Assembly (NCBI GenBank): GCA_005240075.1
Contig: SBBF01000074.1
Coordinates: 1 to 47,646 of the forward strand
Length of the DNA: 47,646 nt
Direction: 5' to 3'
Origin: Nitrospira sp.
GTDB taxonomy: Bacteria > UBA10199 > SBBF01
The notes under the pieces are model-generated. The model was not told the origin of the DNA and did not search any database. It saw nothing but the letters and a program-made list of their open reading frames with translations. The position numbers and the translations under genes were made by a program. Below are positions 879 through 46,627 of the stretch, in pieces (the first letter of the stretch is position 1; the number at the start of each line of letters is the position of its first letter).

Positions 879-969
879 TTGTATACCTTCCCCATCGTCT
901 TTACATACGAGATGAAGAAAGCCACCAAACTCAGGACCTCAAGCAACGTCGAGGGGAGCCAAATTCTTC
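879..969 (-). promoter_or_regulatory. Leader element A, copy 5 (redoxin)
   Basis: Read on the minus strand, this leader begins GAAGAATTTGGCT, carries an internal CCTC/GAGG hairpin, and continues GTCCTGAG, GGTGGCT and TTCTTCATC. It ends GGGGAAGGTATACAA directly before the ATG. It shares the order of blocks and the final ribosome-binding site with the copies before clpB, rplS, rpsT and the flavoprotein at 44842. It is the most diverged copy, with a longer first hairpin. The rest of the 308-bp gap between the redoxin and the Ig-domain gene holds the two divergent promoters and nothing else I can see. Confidence 0.6.
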
Positions 970-991
970 CTCGACGGACATCCAATTCCTT

Positions 992-22245: not shown

Positions 22246-22322
22246 TTATATATCTTCCCGCTCCGCTTCGCTACGCGATGAAGGGAGCCACCGTGTTCAG
22301 GACTGACAAAGCCAGATCCTTC
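22246..22322 (-). promoter_or_regulatory. Leader element A, copy 3 (rpsT)
   Basis: On the minus strand: GAAGGATCTGGCTTTGTCAG with stem AGGA-[T]-CTGGC / GTCAG-TCCT, then GGTGGCTCCCTTCATCGCG, a short variable loop, and GAGCGGGAAGATATATAA before the ATG. CTTC can pair with GAAG of the ribosome-binding site. It lies wholly inside the predicted transcript leader. Confidence 0.75.
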
Positions 22323-22350
22323 ATTCATTGGCGTTCGAGTTCGAGTCGTG

Positions 22351-29475: not shown

Positions 29476-29492
29476 TTTTGACGCTATCGGTG

Positions 29493-29569
29493 GAAGAATC
29501 CGGCTTTGCCGGTTCTGATATTGGAAGCCCCCTTCATCGTCAGCCGAAGGCTGACGGGAAGGTATATAA
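29493..29569 (+). promoter_or_regulatory. Leader element A, copy 1 (clpB)
   Basis: Stem I is AGAA-[T]-CCGGC / TTT / GCCGG-TTCT. Then follow CTGA, GGAAGCCCCCTTCATCG and stem II, in which CGTCAGCC and GGCTGACG pair around GAA. CCTTC just outside can pair with GAAGG of GGGAAGGTATATAA, burying the ribosome-binding site. The ATG follows directly. This is the copy with the strongest second hairpin. Confidence 0.8.
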
Positions 29570-32152
29570 ATGAGAACCGACAAGCTCACAACAAAAGCCC
29601 AAGAGGCATTATCGGACGCTCAGAATACCGCTCTGGAACGTTCCCACCAGCAGGTGGAGGTGGAACATCTTCTCTGGGCCCTCCTTCATCAAAAAGATGG
29701 ATTAACGAGTCCCCTGCTTCAGAAGATGGGCATTGCGCAAGCCTCGATCGCTCAGGAACTGGAAGCCCAGTTGGAAAAACTCCCCAAAATCTCCGGCGGC
29801 GCGGGAGAATATATCTCTCCAAAAATTAGAATCGTTTTGAACCGGGCTGAGAAGGAAGCCCAAAAACTTAAAGATGACTTTGTTTCCACGGAGCATCTTC
29901 TTTTGGCCATTCTAGAAACGACCGATCTCCCCGCCGGAGACATGCTCAAGAAAAAAGGGATCACCCGTGACAGTTTGCTAAAGGCGCTGGTAGAAATTCG
30001 GGGGGCCCATCGGGTAACCGATCCAAATCCGGAGGAAAAATATCAAGCGCTGGAGCGCTATACCCGTGACCTGACAGCGCTGGCTGGTCAAGGAAAACTC
30101 GATCCGGTCATCGGCCGGGATGAAGAAGTGAGACGAGTGATTCAGGTCTTGTCGCGACGAACCAAAAATAATCCGGTTTTGATTGGCGAACCGGGGGTGG
30201 GGAAGACCGCCATTGTGGAAGGACTGGCGATCCGGATAGCCCATGGGGATATTCCTGAAACGCTCAAGGATAAGAAAGTAGTGGCGCTCGATTTGGGATC
30301 TCTCATTGCTGGCACCAAATTCCGCGGCGAGTTTGAAGATCGTTTAAAGGCGGTCTTGAAAGAGATCACCCAATCCAACGGTCAGATCATTCTTTTTATT
30401 GATGAGCTTCACACGCTCGTGGGAGCGGGAAGTGCCGAAGGAGCCATGGATGCCTCCAACATGTTAAAGCCGGCGTTGGCCCGCGGCGAATTGCGGTGCG
30501 TGGGGGCCACTACCCTTGATGAGTATCGGAAACATGTTGAAAAAGATGCCGCTCTGGAGCGCCGTTTTCAGCCGGTTTTGGTGGGAGAGCCGACTGTTGA
30601 AGATACGATTGCCATTCTTCGGGGATTGAAGGAACGCTACGAAGTTCATCATGGAGTAAGAATTCAGGATTCGGCTCTGGTGGCGGCCGCCACCTTGTCC
30701 CATCGTTATATTTCTGACCGGTTTCTCCCCGACAAGGCAATTGATCTGATGGACGAGGCCGCTTCCAAACTGCGGATTGAAATTGCCTCTCTCCCTTCGG
30801 AGATTGACGAGATTGAAAGGAAGATTACGCAACTCCAGATTGAAAAACAGGCGTTGTCAAAAGAGGGAGATTCAGCTTCCCAGGAGCGGTTTCAAAAAAT
30901 TGAGTCGGAGCTCGCTCAATTAAAAGAGAAATCCGATGCGATGAAAGGACATTGGCAGAACGAAAAAGAGGGAATTTCTCAAATCCGTAAAATCAAGGAA
31001 GAGATGGAACAGACCAAAACCGCTTCTGAAAAGGCGGAGAGGCAGGGGGATTTAAGCAGGGCGGCCGAACTGAAATATGGAAAATTGCATGAACTGGGAA
31101 AAAGACTGGAGGAGGCCAATCGAAAATTAAACGAGCTTCAGAAAGAACAAAAAATGCTTCAAGAGGAAGTGGGGGAGGAGGATATTGCAGAAATTGTCGC
31201 CCGATGGACCGGAATTCCAGTTTCCAAAATGCTGGAAGGGGAGGCGGCCAAACTGCTGAGGATGGAGGATCGGTTAAAGCAGAGGGTGGTGGGGCAGGAT
31301 CATGCGGTGACCAAGGTTGCCAATGCAGTACGAAGAGCGCGCGCCGGTTTGCAGGATTTGAATCGTCCGATCGGCTCTTTTATTTTTTTGGGTCCGACCG
31401 GCGTGGGAAAAACAGAAACGGCCAGAGCGTTGGCCGAATTCCTCTTTGACAACGATCAGGCGATGATCCGGATCGACATGTCGGAATTTATGGAAAAACA
31501 TTCGGTGGCCCGGCTGATCGGCGCTCCTCCCGGCTATGTTGGTTACGAGGAGGGGGGGCACCTGACGGAATCTGTCCGCCGCAGACCCTACTCGGTGGTT
31601 CTTTTGGACGAGGTTGAAAAAGCGCATCCGGATGTTTTTAATATTTTGCTCCAGATTCTGGATGATGGACGGTTGACCGACGGCCATGGAAGAACGGTCG
31701 ATTTTAAAAACACGGTGATCATCATGACATCCAATATCGGTTCTCAGGCGATGCTGGAGGGGGGGGAAAACAGAAAAAAAGCGGAAAAAGAAATGGCCCA
31801 GCTGTTAAAAGCAACTTTCAAACCGGAATTTTTAAACCGGATCGACGATATCATTTATTTCAATTCGCTGGACGAATCGGCAATCCACAAGATTGTCGAT
31901 ATTCAAGCCCGGCGCCTGAATGAACTGCTGGAAAAAAGAAAACTGAAACTGGAATTCCACCCTCCTGTTCTCGACTGGCTTGGCAAGATTGGCTACGACC
32001 CCGTCTATGGGGCCCGTCCCCTCAAGCGGACCATCCAGAAACATATTCAGGATCCTTTATCCCTTGAAATCCTGGCCGGTAATTTTCGGGAGAACGACAC
32101 CATCAAAGCTGTTCTGAATGAAAAAGGGGAGATTGCCTTTTCCAAAAGATGA
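29570..32152 (+). CDS. clpB: ClpB-type AAA+ disaggregase
   Basis: 860 residues, normal for ClpB. The N-terminal Clp-N repeat pair covers about 1-145. NBD1 has Walker A GEPGVGKT (206-213); the long coiled-coil middle domain covers about 400-520 (Q/K/E-rich); NBD2 has Walker A GPTGVGKT (about 605-612) and [30 protein letters not shown]. It rescues aggregated proteins with DnaK. Unlike the usual heat-shock promoter arrangement, it is preceded by element A, whose stem sequesters the ribosome-binding site; temperature-sensitive opening is a testable idea. The stop overlaps the next gene by 4 bases. Confidence 0.97.
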
Positions 32153-35495: not shown

Positions 35496-38400
35496 TTATA
35501 TTTTTCTTCTTATCGGCAGGATGAGGAATAAGTTGCTTAAAATCAACATGAAAAAAATGGGGGCTGAAGCTGCTGGATTAATTGATCTTTTTTGAAGCAA
35601 ACAACCTCCTCCCCCTTTGGCCTCGATGCCGTATTCCAGGGGAACAAGTATTTTGGTGCAGGTGGAGCTATCTGAAAGTTCAAAGTAAACAACAGTGTTT
35701 TCGCCAGACGATTCAGAGGCAGAAACGGTCAGTCCGCAAATAGTGTCTGTATTGCCTGCCTCGTAATCTCGTACCTCTTCCAATGTAGGTTCGCAGTTGT
35801 TGGCTTGTTCGACTTCATCGGTAGTGGAGGTGAGCATATCACAGGCCGGTACCGCCTCTTCTTCATCAGGATTGTCAAATTTTTCTTCGCCCTCACTAGC
35901 TGCTTCTTCAAGGGTACCGGTGGAATCTGTTGTTGTATTGTTGTTGGTACAATTTTCATCAATGGTGCCATCGCAATCATCATCAGTGCCATTGTCACAG
36001 GTCTCTGTCAAATCCCCGCAAGTGCCGCAGGCGTTGGTGACCCCTTCATCAACTTCATTGTCGCAGTCATTATCGGCTCCATCACAGGTTTCCTCGGCCG
36101 GCTGGCATTCTTCCGGTTTATCCATGCAGACCTGGGCCTCAATTTCGGTATACTGCCCACTTTCCCCTTTTTCCGAGACATGAGAATCGATGTCATGATT
36201 ATTAAGACGGTTTTGCGCCACAGCAGTCAGCGTTTGCGCCACTTTATCGAAAAGGTATGCGGTCTGAAACTCCTGGTTTAGGACAATCGGATTGTTCGAT
36301 GTGTCAAACCCAACGACCTCCATTCCTTGGAGTACCTGCAGGTTCGTTGTTCCCGAGTTCGCCAGATCCAACCGGACGACATTTCCCCCGCTGTCTTCCA
36401 TATACAGTTGAGCTTTGCGGTCTGCGTTTAAGCGGTTGATCGTGTCCGAGTTGTCGATAGCGTAAGTGACCGTCATCGTTCCCTGATCAGTATCCCGACA
36501 TTCAAACCCGACTGAAGTCATGAGGCAGGAGGCAAGCTGGGATTCTTTTTCATCAGGACATTCCGGCTTTTCATGGATCATGCATCCATCACAGCACCAT
36601 TGATCGTTGCTGGTGAGGCCATCCGTTCCGTCGCATTCTTCGTTCCCTTCTTTAGTGCCATTTCCGCACTCTTCAGCCACCAGTTGGCACTCTTCGCATG
36701 TTGGATCGGTCGTGCCGGGGGCTGGGTCACATTCTTCTGTCCCTTCCACAACGCCGTCGCCGCAGACAATTTCCTCACAAGCGGTTGTGCATCCATCGGT
36801 GTCATCCGAATTTCCATCGTCACATTCTTCTCCTGTATTGACAATCCCGTCTCCACAGGTGCCGCAGGCATTTCCCGCCGCGCTTGAAACTGTTGTATAT
36901 TCACAGCCGCTGGCGGTATTACAAGAATCGGTGGTGCAATCATTGCTGTCATTGCAGTCAAGGGCTGTTCCATCCTGGCAGGTAGAACCGGCCGCCGCCG
37001 AGACACAGGTTTCCGTGCCGTTGCACACATTCCCATCATCGCAGTCGGAATCGGAGACACAGCAATTATCGATGGGGGTATTGACCGCTTCTCCGTTACT
37101 GCAGCTGTCGGTTGTACAGGAATTGCCGTCATCCACATCGATCGGTGTGTGGGAAACTGTTCCAGAAGTCGGGTCACAGGAATCGGTGGTACAGGGATCA
37201 TCGTCGCTTGTCTCAATAGGAGTATGACTGGTGCCCGTTGAAGGGTCACAACTGTCAATCGTACAGGCGTCTCCATCATCGGTATCGACCGGAATATTGC
37301 TCACGGTTCCCGTTGTTGTATCGCATGAATCAATTGTACAGACGTTATTGTCATTGGGATCGATTGTTGTCGTCGAACAGGTTCCCGTAGCAACCCCATT
37401 GGTTCCACTTTGTCCCAATACACATTCTTCAGTAGTACAGGCGTTGCCGTCGTCGGCACAGTCATTGTCTGTCATACAGCAATCATCGATGGGACTATTG
37501 ATTGGATCTCCTGTTGCGGGATCGCAACTATCGGTTGTGCAGGTATTTCCGTCGTCAGGGTTAGATGGTTCGTGCAGACATTGACTGGTGGTCGTAGCAA
37601 TGTTGAAACTGCAGGTATCCGTTGTGCAGGCATCCCCGTCATCGCAATCGGTATTATCAAAACAGCAAGTTTCCGGATCGAGGCTGTTGTCGGCAGTCCC
37701 ATCGCAATCATTGTCTTGTCCGTCGCAGACTTCCTGGGTTGGTTGACAATCGGGTTGGCCCTGTTCCACTGGGTCAGTCGGTTTGACGCAGTAACCCCAT
37801 ACTCCCTCAGCTGAACAACCTTGGGAGCCTCCGCTCCAATAACCCTGACTGTTGTCATTTTCAGCTTTACAGTCGGGGTATTTGGGATCGCCGTAAGGGC
37901 ATCCCTCCGTTGAATCACATTCCTCCTGGGTTCCAGGTACACAGGGGATGGTGCAATTCATCGTGCAATCATCGCCATTGGCTGTATTTCCGTCGTCGCA
38001 TTCCTCTCCCGTATCGACAATTCCGTTGCCGCATGTCTGAGGAATATTTGAATTGGCCTGTTCGGTTGTCTCACCTGAATCAAACGTTGCCCCACATCCC
38101 TGCCATCTGTCGAGACTTGTTGAGCCAGTAGCCTCGGGCGTTTCCATCATCTTCAGATCATCTGTTGTGAGAGTGTAGGTTTGACCCGACGCATACTTGT
38201 TGTCCTCTCCTGAAATAAAATAAGTTTTTCCGTCATTGAGGCCGCTTGCAACGAGGGCTTTGACATCAGTGCGCACTGTAACAGCCGAAGGGATAAAGGG
38301 AACATTCAGGATCGTTGTGGCTGAATCGAGTGTTGCCGTATCGGGAGTGGGGGATGTCAACTTCGAGGTATCGATGAGCATGATCTGGTTTTCAGCCGAG

Positions 38401-39545
38401 TTTGTGAAAATGAGCATATTTTCATGGAAAATCCCGTCAGGGCTTTCCAAGGAATAGCCTCTTTGGTTCAAGTAAGATTTTGCATCGATTTCTCCCGATT
38501 GATTATCTTTCACGTTAGTTGCTTCGCTTGTGGCCATCGTTTTGATGATTCCATGTGAAGTCATTCCGACCAGCTTTCCGTCCGAAGTCATCGTAATCCA
38601 TTTCATCGGTTCACCAAAATCGAGCGTTTCTGAGATTTGTTGGGTTCCGTCAATATCGTCAATTTTTCCGTTCGTATCGAGAACATAAACATGGTCTGTC
38701 CCGCGGGTTAAATCGGCAATCTTGACCCCTTCTGGCATATCGATGGTGATAGTCTGAACCGCATAATTCTTGATTTCAGTCGAACCCTCGGACACCGGTT
38801 CATTCATGATGAAATGGAGGTGATTGTCATGTCCCCAAATAAGAGCTTGATAGGAGGAAGGATCCGCCGTGATTCCTTTGACATTCTGATATCCGGTGGC
38901 CTGTATGACCAGTTGACCATTTTCATTGTAGCAAGCTATCTGGCTTTTTTCTGTGGAAGCAAAACAGCCGATGCCTTGCGAAGATTCTCCTGAGGGGCAG
39001 GTGAAGGTGGGGATTTGATCACAAATATCGCTGACGCCGTCTTTGTCTGAATCAGCCCCATCATCCACTTGTCCATTGCAGTCATTGTCCTTCCCGTCGC
39101 AGACTTCGGGGTTTCCCGGAAACATCGTAGAATCCTGATCGTTGCAGTCATCATTGTTGGTAACAACTCCATCCTGGATTACGCAGACTGAAATCGGATT
39201 TACCGGGTCTCCATGACCATCTCTGTCATTATCAGGATAGACGATTGATGTGCCGATATCGGCCTCTTCCGTGATTCCATCGCAGTCGTTATCAATTCCC
39301 CAATCGCTACATGTTTCCTGTTGTGGAATGCACTTGGTACCGTTTGTTGTTGCATTGGTTTTGGGGGCCACTGTCTGATTCGCTGTCGAGATTTGGGGAG
39401 CAGCTAAATTTTGTGAAGGAGATATTTTTGTAGCGTCTGTTGATTGGGTTTGAGCATGAAGCGAGGAAGAGCGTGCTATTAAAAACAACCCCGCAATCAC
39501 AACCCAAGCGATCGAAACCCTTTTCCCTCTAAAAAAAGGTGTCAT
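35496..39545 (-). CDS. Giant cysteine-rich surface protein (MopE-like and myxobacterial disulfide repeats) with C-terminal sorting tail
   Basis: 1349 residues. A signal peptide covers about 1-31 (VIAGLFLIARSSSLHAQ). A first MopE-type block (about 77-175) has DNDCDG and CDGKDNDCNGQVDDG calcium-type loops. Residues about 190-480 are a Cys-poor domain that may be a propeller. Then follow repeats of CGNGIVDTGEECDDGN, about eight units of the type DDGNxCTTDSCDxxTG, two more GEECDDGN/EECDP blocks, and ETCDGADNDCDNEVDEG near the end. The C-terminus is GGGGCLLQKRS, a hydrophobic helix and IRRKI: a Cys - transmembrane - basic tail like MYXO-CTERM-type sorting signals. Expected to be exported, disulfide-bonded and surface-attached. 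It has its own sigma-54 promoter and heads an operon with the transglutaminase-like gene. Confidence 0.85.
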   Translation of the reverse strand: MTPFFRGKRVSIAWVVIAGLFLIARSSSLHAQTQSTDATKISPSQNLAAPQISTANQTVAPKTNATTNGTKCIPQQETCSDWGIDNDCDGITEEADIGTSIVYPDNDRDGHGDPVNPISVCVIQDGVVTNNDDCNDQDSTMFPGNPEVCDGKDNDCNGQVDDGADSDKDGVSDICDQIPTFTCPSGESSQGIGCFASTEKSQIACYNENGQLVIQATGYQNVKGITADPSSYQALIWGHDNHLHFIMNEPVSEGSTEIKNYAVQTITIDMPEGVKIADLTRGTDHVYVLDTNGKIDDIDGTQQISETLDFGEPMKWITMTSDGKLVGMTSHGIIKTMATSEATNVKDNQSGEIDAKSYLNQRGYSLESPDGIFHENMLIFTNSAENQIMLIDTSKLTSPTPDTATLDSATTILNVPFIPSAVTVRTDVKALVASGLNDGKTYFISGEDNKYASGQTYTLTTDDLKMMETPEATGSTSLDRWQGCGATFDSGETTEQANSNIPQTCGNGIVDTGEECDDGNTANGDDCTMNCTIPCVPGTQEECDSTEGCPYGDPKYPDCKAENDNSQGYWSGGSQGCSAEGVWGYCVKPTDPVEQGQPDCQPTQEVCDGQDNDCDGTADNSLDPETCCFDNTDCDDGDACTTDTCSFNIATTTSQCLHEPSNPDDGNTCTTDSCDPATGDPINSPIDDCCMTDNDCADDGNACTTEECVLGQSGTNGVATGTCSTTTIDPNDNNVCTIDSCDTTTGTVSNIPVDTDDGDACTIDSCDPSTGTSHTPIETSDDDPCTTDSCDPTSGTVSHTPIDVDDGNSCTTDSCSNGEAVNTPIDNCCVSDSDCDDGNVCNGTETCVSAAAGSTCQDGTALDCNDSNDCTTDSCNTASGCEYTTVSSAAGNACGTCGDGIVNTGEECDDGNSDDTDGCTTACEEIVCGDGVVEGTEECDPAPGTTDPTCEECQLVAEECGNGTKEGNEECDGTDGLTSNDQWCCDGCMIHEKPECPDEKESQLASCLMTSVGFECRDTDQGTMTVTYAIDNSDTINRLNADRKAQLYMEDSGGNVVRLDLANSGTTNLQVLQGMEVVGFDTSNNPIVLNQEFQTAYLFDKVAQTLTAVAQNRLNNHDIDSHVSEKGESGQYTEIEAQVCMDKPEECQPAEETCDGADNDCDNEVDEGVTNACGTCGDLTETCDNGTDDDCDGTIDENCTNNNTTTDSTGTLEEAASEGEEKFDNPDEEEAVPACDMLTSTTDEVEQANNCEPTLEEVRDYEAGNTDTICGLTVSASESSGENTVVYFELSDSSTCTKILVPLEYGIEAKGGGGCLLQKRSINPAASAPIFFMLILSNLFLILPIRRKI

Positions 39546-41150: not shown

Positions 41151-41151
41151 G

Positions 41152-41238
41152 CGAGAATCGGGCTTGGCCCGTTCGAGCGAATACCAAGGGGGTTTGGGGG
41201 AGGCCAGCGGCCAATCCCCCATTATAAAAGGAGAAAAT
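41152..41238 (+). repeat. Composite of an element A stem and dispersed element B before rpsP (A6 / B copy 1)
   Basis: 41152-41175 repeats the first stem of element A with new paired bases: AGAA-[T]-CGGGC / TTG / GCCCG-TTC. From 41176 it turns into element B: GAGCGAATACCAAGGGGG, a GGGG..GGCC-AGC-GGCC..CCCC hairpin (41194-41220), then ATTATAAAAGGAG. The ribosome-binding site AAAGGAG lies just downstream of the stem. Both element families thus meet here as well as at 46342-46510. Confidence 0.55.
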
Positions 41239-41240
41239 AT

Positions 41241-41859: not shown

Positions 41860-42537
41860 ATGATTTTTCATGTTTTGACTTTATTTCCTGAAATTTTTCC
41901 TCCTTATCTTTCAGCAGGAATTTTGGGAAAGGGAATCGAAAAAAAAATCATCCAGGTTCATCTCCATCAGCTCCGGGATTATGCAACCGACAAACATCGT
42001 TCCGTCGACGACCGCCCCTACGGCGGGGGGAGCGGGATGGTTCTCCGGCCCGATGTCGTGGTGAGAGCTGTTGAAGCCATTCGAAGCGCCAATGAAATTG
42101 ATCGTGTTGTTTTACTTTCGCCGCGTGGGCGGCTTTTTTCGGATGGTATCGCCCGGCAATGGACGGGCCAAAATCTTCTCCTGATTTGTGGCCGCTATGA
42201 AGGGATCGACCAGCGGGCGATTGACAAAGTGGTGGATGAAGAACTTTCCATAGGCGATTACGTCTTGACTGGCGGAGAACTGCCAGCGTTGGTGGTGGTG
42301 GATGCTGTCTCTCGTTTTATTCCCGGAGTTGTGGGGAATGAGGCAGGCCCCAAGGACGACAGCCACACTACTGGCTTTTTGGAATATCCCCATTACACCC
42401 GACCGGAAGAATTCGAGGGGAGAAAAGTGCCCTCGGTTCTTCTGTCCGGCAATCATGCCGAAATTGAAAAGTGGCGGCGGGAACAGGCCTTGTTGATTAC
42501 GCAAAAAAACAGACCTGATTTGTTGCAAAAAAAATGA
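41860..42537 (+). CDS. trmD: tRNA (guanine-37-N1)-methyltransferase
   Basis: 225 residues. It makes m1G37 using S-adenosylmethionine and prevents +1 frameshifting. The trefoil-knot SPOUT signature is intact: [42 protein letters not shown] and [20 protein letters not shown]. The start is separated from khpA by a terminator-like stem. The stop overlaps the next gene by 4 bases (ATGA). Confidence 0.97.
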
Positions 42538-43175
42538 CTTCCCCCATCTACATCGCCCTCATTCATTACCCTGTTCTCAATAAACAGGGAGATATTGTTA
42601 CCACGTCACTGACCAATTTTGACATCCATGATTTGGGGCGGACTTCGGCTACGTTTGGGGTGGAGAAATGTTTTATGGTGACTCCTGTCGAGGCTCAGAT
42701 CAAAATGGTTGATTATATCAAAAAATATTGGCGCGAAGGGGTGGGGGAGCGTTATAACCCCGACCGGAGCGAGGCCTTCAAAAATATAGAAGTTTGTAAG
42801 GACTTAAACGAAACCTGTTTGACAATCGAAAAACTCCATGGTACACCCGCAAAACTTGTTGCCACCTCGGCTCGGGAGTCTAAAAAACCAATACTTTTTA
42901 AAGAGTTGAGAGGGCAGATAGCGAGCTCACATCAGCCGGTTTTATTATTGTTTGGAACCGGTTGGGGTTTGAGTCCTGAAATTATTGATCGGTGTGATGG
43001 AGTTTTGGAGCCGATCCGGGGATTGAAAGGATACAATCATCTGCCGGTTCGAGCGGCCGTGGCTATTATTTTGGATCGCTTACTGTCGCCACATGATGAA
43101 GAATCTGGCTTTGCCAGTTCTGAGATGGGGGGCTCCCTTCATCGCGAACGAAGTGAGCGGGAAGGTATCAAATGA
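42534..43175 (+). CDS. SAM-dependent RNA methyltransferase (PF09936 type), C-terminus formed by element A
   Basis: 213 residues. The family is a SPOUT-like methyltransferase usually beside or fused to TrmD; target RNA unknown. Visible marks: [59 protein letters not shown] and [22 protein letters not shown]. The domain ends at about residue 187. The last 26 residues (from [13 protein letters not shown] to REGIK) are encoded by leader element A copy 2 of rplS, so the tail is probably not functional protein. It overlaps trmD and rplS by 4 bases each. Confidence 0.87.
43098..43171 (+). promoter_or_regulatory. Leader element A, copy 2 (rplS)
   Basis: Stem I AGAA-[T]-CTGGC / TTT / GCCAG-TTCT, then CTGAGATGG and GGCTCCCTTCATCGCG, a variable loop, and GAGCGGGAAGGTATCAA followed by the ATG. 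CCTTC can pair with GAAGG of the ribosome-binding site. The element is read as the 3' end of the methyltransferase gene, so translation of that gene would melt it. Confidence 0.8.
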
Positions 43176-43600: not shown

Positions 43601-44333
43601 ACCACTTGTGAAAGGGGTTGTGAGCAAAGCGTCAGATTTATTCTGTGCGGAGCGAACCAGTGGGGGGTACGGAGGCGGCGGAGGCAAAGCCCCCGATCTT
43701 AAAACCTTTTGGGAAGAAAAATATTGGTCCCAAAATGTTCATCGGGTGGCCGGGCTTGATGAAGCGGGACGGGGAGCCTGGGCGGGCCCTGTGGTGGCGG
43801 CGGCGGTGATTTTCAAGCCGGGAACTTCCCTTCCTGAAATCGACGATTCCAAAAAATTATCCCCTCAAAAAAGAGAGAAATTGTTTGATCTGATTTGTTG
43901 TAAGGCCGAGGCGTATGCGATTGCTGAGGTGTCCAATCAGATGATCGATGACATTAATATTCTTGAAGCCTCTCTTCAGGCGATGAGAGAGGCGGTCTTT
44001 AAACTGGCTCATCAACCGGAAAGGTTGTTGATTGACGGGCATCGGGGCCTTGGTCTTGCTATTCCGCAAACAACCATTGTGAGCGGAGACGCTTTATCTT
44101 TATCGATTGGCGCCGCTTCCATTCTGGCCAAGGTTCATCGGGACCGATTGATGGGGGGTCACGAAAAAACTTTTTTCCACTTTCACTTTTCGAAGCATAA
44201 AGGATATGGCACAGCTCTTCATCAGGAAGAACTTCAAAAATATGGACCGACCCCCCTTCATCGTTTTTCTTTTCATCCTGTAAAAACTCTTTTCTTTGAA
44301 TCCGCTCCCGCTGGTGATAGAATACACTTTTAA
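43551..44333 (+). CDS. rnhB: Ribonuclease HII with an N-terminal region encoded by element B
   Basis: 260 residues from the first ATG. It removes ribonucleotides from RNA:DNA hybrids. The core is complete: [21 protein letters not shown] (Asp-Glu catalytic pair), [20 protein letters not shown] and [17 protein letters not shown]. Residues 23-50 (Gly-rich, [16 protein letters not shown]) come from element B copy 2. The start is uncertain: ATG 43551 overlaps rplS by 50 bases without a ribosome-binding site, while GTG 43608 or GTG 43620 are alternatives. All of them read through most of the repeat, because the conserved [13 protein letters not shown] region follows it. Confidence 0.9.
43617..43702 (+). 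repeat. Dispersed element B, copy 2, within rnhB
   Basis: GTGAGCAAAGCGTCAG, ATTTATTCTG, a GAACCA block, a GGGGGG run and GGCAAAGCCCCCGAT match the element inside the leader at 46342-46510 nearly base for base (roughly 80% by eye). CAGA/TCTG is a small stem. The frame stays open through the repeat. Confidence 0.7.
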
Positions 44334-46341: not shown

Positions 46342-46510
46342 AGAATACCTTCCCGCTCGTCTTTTTTATCGGGGGCTTTGCCGCTGGCGCCCCCGAACCC
46401 CCCTTGGTTCACTCAGCGCAGAATAAATCTGACGCTTCGCTCACAATCAGATTGACCAACTCGCGATGAAGGGGGCTTCCAAGGTCAGGACTGGCCGAGC
46501 CAGATCCTTC
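46342..46510 (-). repeat. Leader element A copy 4 interrupted by element B copy 3
   Basis: On the minus strand: AGGA-[T]-CTGGC / TCG / GCCAG-TCCT, then GGAAGCCCCCTTCATCGCGA. About 100 bases of element B follow (46360-46461: GTGAGCGAAGCGTCAG ... GGCAAAGCCCCCGAT), then CGAGCGGGAAGGTATTCT and the ATG. CTCG borders both sides of the insert and may be a target duplication. Upstream, 46511-46627 contains only a perfect palindrome AATGCTAGCATT (46533-46544) and no gene. Confidence 0.7.
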
Positions 46511-46627
46511 CGTATTTAGCGTGCGAGTGAGAAATGCTAGCATTATTTATGACTCGAAGGCAATCGGAGAAGAATTTGACGAAATCTACACCCCCAGAGG
46601 ATGGCAAAAGGTTTTTTGGCATTGATC

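Follow-up and report, generated by a model that had tools for sequence, protein, structure and literature searches.

REP palindromes are imperfect hairpins with a bulged base that are present in many copies, and the hairpins of IS200/IS605 carry a bulged T, as does helix P2 of the repeat studied here (element A). The Rickettsia palindromic elements (RPE) are short dispersed repeats that form hairpins and are found also in stable RNA genes (PMC2229807, PMC10969869). The bacterial MITEs (Correia/NEMIS, ERIC, RUP and BOX) are small non-coding repeats which can alter the expression of their neighbours, in an orientation-dependent manner in the case of ERIC (PMC10969869, PMC2229807). In the analysed stretch of 47,646 nt (hereafter the window), element A occupies a different position, directly before start codons. 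The leader of clpB (29481..29569, plus strand) scores 98 bits with a covariance model of the main class of the repeat (class I) and is followed by the ATG at 29570. Three helices are formed on this strand. P1 pairs GCT (29483-29485) with AGC (29526-29528); a tandem G-A (29493-29494 with 29517-29518) precedes P2 (29495-29516, bulged T at 29499); and P3 pairs CCTTC (29531-29535) with GAAGG (29558-29562) and continues in an inner stem. The 3' strand of P3 contains the ribosome-binding site GGAAGG (29557..29569, plus strand), located 7 nt upstream of the ATG.

The first-pass annotation had placed five copies in the window, and all five are indeed found there with their last base directly before an ATG. 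The other four are the leaders of rplS (43086..43171, plus strand, 95 bits), of rpsT (22246..22334, minus strand, 92.4 bits), of an ORF of 499 aa (46342..46520, minus strand, 59 bits for the 5' part) and, in a degenerate form, of a redoxin (AhpC/TSA) gene (879..980, minus strand, 35.8 bits). The "flavoprotein" of the annotation is the ORF of 499 aa, which has no Pfam match. The covariation described for stem I (P2) holds in the copies of clpB, rplS, rpsT and the 499-aa ORF, with one G-U pair in rpsT (GTCAG). The P2 of the redoxin copy contains an inserted hairpin, and further palindromes are inserted in the loop of P3 (stem II of the annotation) in the 46342-46520 copy. The ribosome-binding site that had been considered as conserved, GGGAAGGTAT, is exact in four of the five copies; rpsT displays GGGAAGATAT instead, which disrupts the outermost pair of P3. 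Promoter-like boxes (TTGACA / TTACAT) are located immediately upstream of the rpsT leader. The annotation had not seen the third helix P1 nor, at the base of stem I, the tandem G-A and a covarying pair. It had also missed how widely the repeat occurs in the genome, its sense bias, and the fact that stem I exists in relatives and in a second phylum as well.

Other features of the window are related to these copies or adjacent to them. A class III leader, composed of a P2-like hairpin and a GGGGG..CCCCC stem (41151..41240, plus strand), is followed by a native AAAGGAG and then by an ORF of 82 aa, probably rpsP (name given by inference). A second repeat, element B (43618..43716, plus strand), is nested also in the 46342-46520 copy. 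The rplS leader overlaps the preceding ORF, that of an RNA methyltransferase (42534-43175), at its 3' end, and the element codes at 43086-43175 for the ~29 C-terminal residues of this protein, whose Pfam domain stops at residue 184 of 213. Finally, an ORF of 1349 aa with many repeats is found at 35496-39545; the reverse complement of its repeat unit resembles D-x-D-x-D-G (thrombospondin type 3-like).

The clpB copy was used as query sequence with BLAST and detected about 40 copies in the genome of the window (G000), a draft MAG of 1.96 Mb in 117 contigs. The flanking sequence was taken around the matches and start codons were assigned by ORF. The covariance model of class I, trained on 37 copies, recovered from the 1.96 Mb about 106 full copies (E < 1e-10), together with partial copies and related ones. 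The repeat is ~95 nt long and its consensus, from 5' to 3', is (A)CTCGAACGCCA-N5-CGAAGAATCTGGCTTTGCCAGTTCTGAG-N3-GGAGGCTCCCTTCATCGC-(variable stem)-GCGGGAAGGTATATAA-ATG. P1 corresponds to GCY/RGC and P2 to AGAA-T-CTGGC/GCCAG-TTCT, with the bulged T and with G-A/G-A on its flanks. P3 corresponds to CCTTC/GAAGG followed by the inner stem, whose tip varies freely and takes up whole extra hairpins; nested hairpin inserts and tandem copies both occur. An alignment of 107 distinct rows, fitted to the covariance model, has 97.4% of its stem cells paired against 87.3% in shuffles, and double-sided changes in 199 cells against 41; slid controls are paired at 53% at most. In a separate MAFFT alignment, pairs of P1 (C-G/T-A), P2 and P3 are significant against tree-simulated nulls, as is the pair below the tandem G-A, and no null reaches the height of the best covarying pairs. 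The covariation noticed from five copies is thus far above the shuffled, slid and tree-simulated nulls. In 11 copies the outer pair of P3 switches jointly from CCTTC/GAAGG to GCTTC/GAAGC, and the Shine-Dalgarno sequence (SD) consequently loses its final G; the resulting GGAAGC variant, a weak site, represents about 10% of copies.

Native SDs are in use in this genome, where they precede 30% of long ORFs and 7% of internal ATGs. Among the 64 scored copies of class I, 60 have GGAAGG located 6-8 nt upstream of the ATG, and the linker sequence is variable. The proposal that this site is buried agrees with in silico folding of the leaders together with 40 nt of coding sequence, which predicts a median accessibility of GAAGG of 0.017, against 0.43 for native SDs. 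Shuffling of the 5' part raises this value to 0.40. The clpB leader is predicted to fold as drawn, and those of rplS and rpsT have competing folds.

Concerning the position of the repeat, 65 of the 106 copies end 0-10 nt upstream of an ATG followed by an open frame of 50 codons or more, compared with 6.7% of random positions in the same loci and 2/106 on the opposite strand; the copies are therefore not scattered without relation to start codons. Nearly all are in sense orientation. In about 15 further copies, the element is followed either by a native ribosome-binding site (AAGGAG and ATG, about a dozen copies) or by the gene of a tRNA (Ser, Val and Cys, three copies). The exceptions, whose gene calls were made partly by eye, include copies in tandem, one (copy 92) inside a long ORF and another ahead of a terminator; a few antisense copies adjoin the SRP RNA or tRNA-Pro. 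The targets, named by inference from their N-termini, include rpsJ, rplW, rpsS, rplV, rplP, rpsG, rpsO and rplY, then prfB, aspS, argH, guaB, murA, ilvD and leuD, as well as proC, def, pilB, pilC and tatA, and make up no single pathway. On the left side, 50 of 104 copies adjoin the stop codon of the gene before them. Strong -35/-10 boxes occur in 15 of the remaining 54 (3.4% in the control, about 2 expected), with -10 boxes mostly positioned for a predicted transcription start at P1. Since the left end falls at a stop codon or at a predicted transcription start, the repeat usually makes up the complete leader or fills the intercistronic gap entirely. As a general rule, an insertion separating a native SD from its ATG was rejected, as SD words are as frequent to the left of the element as further upstream (11 and 11.0); a few copies (22 and 60) resemble such an insertion.

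Among the 99 genomes searched, class I was found only in the genome of the window. A genome of the same family (G001) has class II in its place, which displays the same P2 and a different 3' module (GGGGCC..GGCCCC) ending with GGGCCGAAGGGGCCCCAA and devoid of SD. In G000, G001 and a further genome (G002), class II ends 2-10 nt before an ATG in 29 of 33 copies; its loci include L103, L113 and L117-L122 (G001) and L177-L188 (G000). In the S10 operon of G000, rpsJ, rplW, rpsS, rplV and rplP are each preceded by class I, and rplF by class II. In the S10 operons of G001, G002, G004 and G005, all from outside the genus, some of these genes follow a short native gap with an SD and others an unrelated palindrome, and no conservation of the element at orthologous genes was seen in these four operons. 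The palindromes that occupy stop-to-ATG gaps of the relatives (L209-L212) comprise for example GTCCTATAGGACC and CAAATGTCAAATTTGACATTTG.

A model restricted to P2 matches 25 of the 46 genomes of the taxonomic class, from single copies up to at least 149 in G000. A further variant adjoins the 5' end of tmRNA in G013, G021 and G037, adjoins a tRNA-Ser in G026 and lies in an rRNA leader of G038. The tmRNA elements, P2-like or related, are located at L033/L313 (G013), L301 (G021) and L283 (G037); other genomes of the class have no element at this end, some having unrelated palindromes there. A conserved tmRNA leader was rejected, the 5'-end element being limited to a few genera and to just a few of about 30 genomes. 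G018 (L275:290-560) has an intact tRNA-Trp with a P2 element behind it, after which the last ~52 bases of the tRNA are repeated. Outside the class, the exact P2 pattern was searched in 84,980 species genomes, a set that leaves out the genome of the window and very near ones, and the matches are almost only in Peregrinibacteria and other Patescibacteria. There, an element of ~70 nt with a P2 core lies in frame within conserved genes (L037-L072; 15 sense, 2 antisense), namely hflX, miaA, pheT, ribD, nadB, folP, purL (three times), rpoC, ssb and others, and also directly before tRNAs. The core of 28 bases is identical across the two phyla.

No intact Y1 transposase was found in G000, a draft assembly with one open fragment of 74 aa at a contig edge; G001 has only fragments and four Peregrinibacteria genomes (G099-G102) have none. 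A Y1/HUH transposase was accordingly rejected as mobiliser. G000, G001 and most of the Peregrinibacteria searched yielded no reverse transcriptase, and the IMG/VR viral contigs contain no P2 pattern. Words common to both flanks are near the level of shuffled partners, and no target site duplication was found. The left end (A)CTCGAACGC and the right end GGTATATAA are not complementary and thus do not form terminal inverted repeats.

On balance, we are inclined to regard element A as a mobile palindromic repeat with a 3' module that carries a ribosome-binding site, retained as a portable 5' leader. The first-pass annotation had left the choice between a cis-acting RNA and a mobile palindrome that doubles as a leader, and the latter fits better given the S10 gaps, the spread of stem I and the absence of a common pathway. 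Copy number, position, orientation, covariation and sporadic occurrence are read directly from the sequences. Class I of the P2-hairpin superfamily would have spread as a mobile palindrome, and mobility is indicated by the sporadic occurrence, the nesting, the tandem copies and the core shared across phyla. Copies would then have been retained where they form transcribed leaders, extending from the promoter start or upstream stop to the start codon or, for a tRNA, to its mature 5' end. Retention as working leaders is indicated by the exact boundaries, the sense bias, the fixed spacing of the ribosome-binding site and the kept pairing. P3 would bring GGAAGG 6-8 nt before the ATG, and since P3 carries this site the downstream gene could still be translated after an insertion. 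As the site is paired with CCTTC, each leader probably reduces initiation, or holds it back until opened by a ribosome or a factor. We thus infer mobility, a working site and a dampened translation from the sequences. Several observations stand against this reading. Simple tolerance would predict a weaker sense bias and less docking at start codons, some copies have the weak site GGAAGC, and neither a mobilising enzyme nor a target duplication was found. Class II has no SD, so the supply of a ribosome-binding site cannot explain docking in general, and the sense copies before tRNAs need no such site. Tolerance alone is insufficient for SD-less P2 elements that stop exactly at gene starts and at mature RNA 5' ends.

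A dedicated cis-regulatory RNA, in which a protein or ligand would bind P1/P2 and switch P3 across a regulon of more than 100 housekeeping genes, appears unlikely. This explanation would account for a structure that is kept while the unpaired positions beside P2 drift nearly to randomness, for the exact leader boundaries, for the predicted burial of the site in 72% of leaders and for the alternative GGNGG/CCCUUC pairing that is possible in some of them, for example rplS. However, the targets range from ribosomal proteins, synthetases and biosynthesis to pili, chaperones and tRNAs, the orthologous S10 genes of relatives have other palindromes or none, and the same P2 is found elsewhere inside ORFs and before tRNAs. 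A broader proposal is equally speculative: a mobile RNA superfamily of two phyla, inserting in sense exactly at gene 5' boundaries such as start codons and the 5' ends of tRNA and tmRNA, possibly by RNA-directed insertion, may have built a global translational regulon in which ~7% or more of the genes have one leader that buries the ribosome-binding site and that a common host factor can open. If the favoured reading of a mobile leader is true, a mobile structured RNA with its own ribosome-binding site can rewire bacterial operons at scale, and a repeat can be confined to gene starts. It becomes testable how a palindrome locates, in sense orientation, the 5' boundary of a gene, by what means ribosomes start at so tightly folded a site in highly expressed genes, and whether the invariant P2 hairpin is recognised by a host factor.

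Still somewhat less probable is a selfish bystander, that is, repeats without effect on expression that are tolerated in leaders, the match to a ribosome-binding site and its burial being accidental. Class II docks at ATGs without SD, GGAAGC variants are also found at ATGs (6/67) and other palindrome families occupy such gaps in relatives, as expected from such repeats. In contrast, the narrow spacing of 6-8 nt despite a variable linker, the strong sense bias and the compensatory changes, which vastly exceed broken pairs, do not agree with it. The first-pass annotation had also listed a thermosensor; an RNA thermosensor of heat-shock type is highly improbable, since, although clpB is among the targets and the ribosome-binding site is paired, P3 is predicted to be too stable (median of -18 kcal/mol for P3 alone, opening in silico only above about 65 C), the predicted accessibility is nearly flat from 15 to 55 C and most targets are not heat-shock genes.

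As had been supposed, element A is not a known riboswitch: the covariance models of Rfam 15 match only tRNA and tmRNA. Resemblances to the hammerhead, group II domain V, attC and retrons were rejected for want of matching motifs. A partial search of the literature returned no description of such a repeat and, to our knowledge, the mobile leader repeat has not been described previously. Like the thermometers and riboswitches that bury an SD, element A has an anti-SD strand opposite the SD just before the ATG, paired in the closed state according to in silico folding; unlike them, it has no Rfam match, a helix that is too stable, unrelated targets and a sporadic distribution across relatives. 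Contrary to MITEs, it has no target duplication and is not scattered, as almost every copy forms the leader of a gene in sense orientation. It shares with REP / RAYT an imperfect hairpin with a bulged base in many copies, and differs by its docking at start codons and by the lack of an intact Y1 in G000 or in the Peregrinibacteria searched. The RPE, compared by description only, are similar in that class I is a dispersed short palindrome able to form a hairpin and that the P2 relatives of Peregrinibacteria lie in frame inside conserved protein genes; class I itself, unlike RPE, is located nearly always before an ATG rather than in frame within protein genes, carries a ribosome-binding site and has the P1-P2-P3 architecture.
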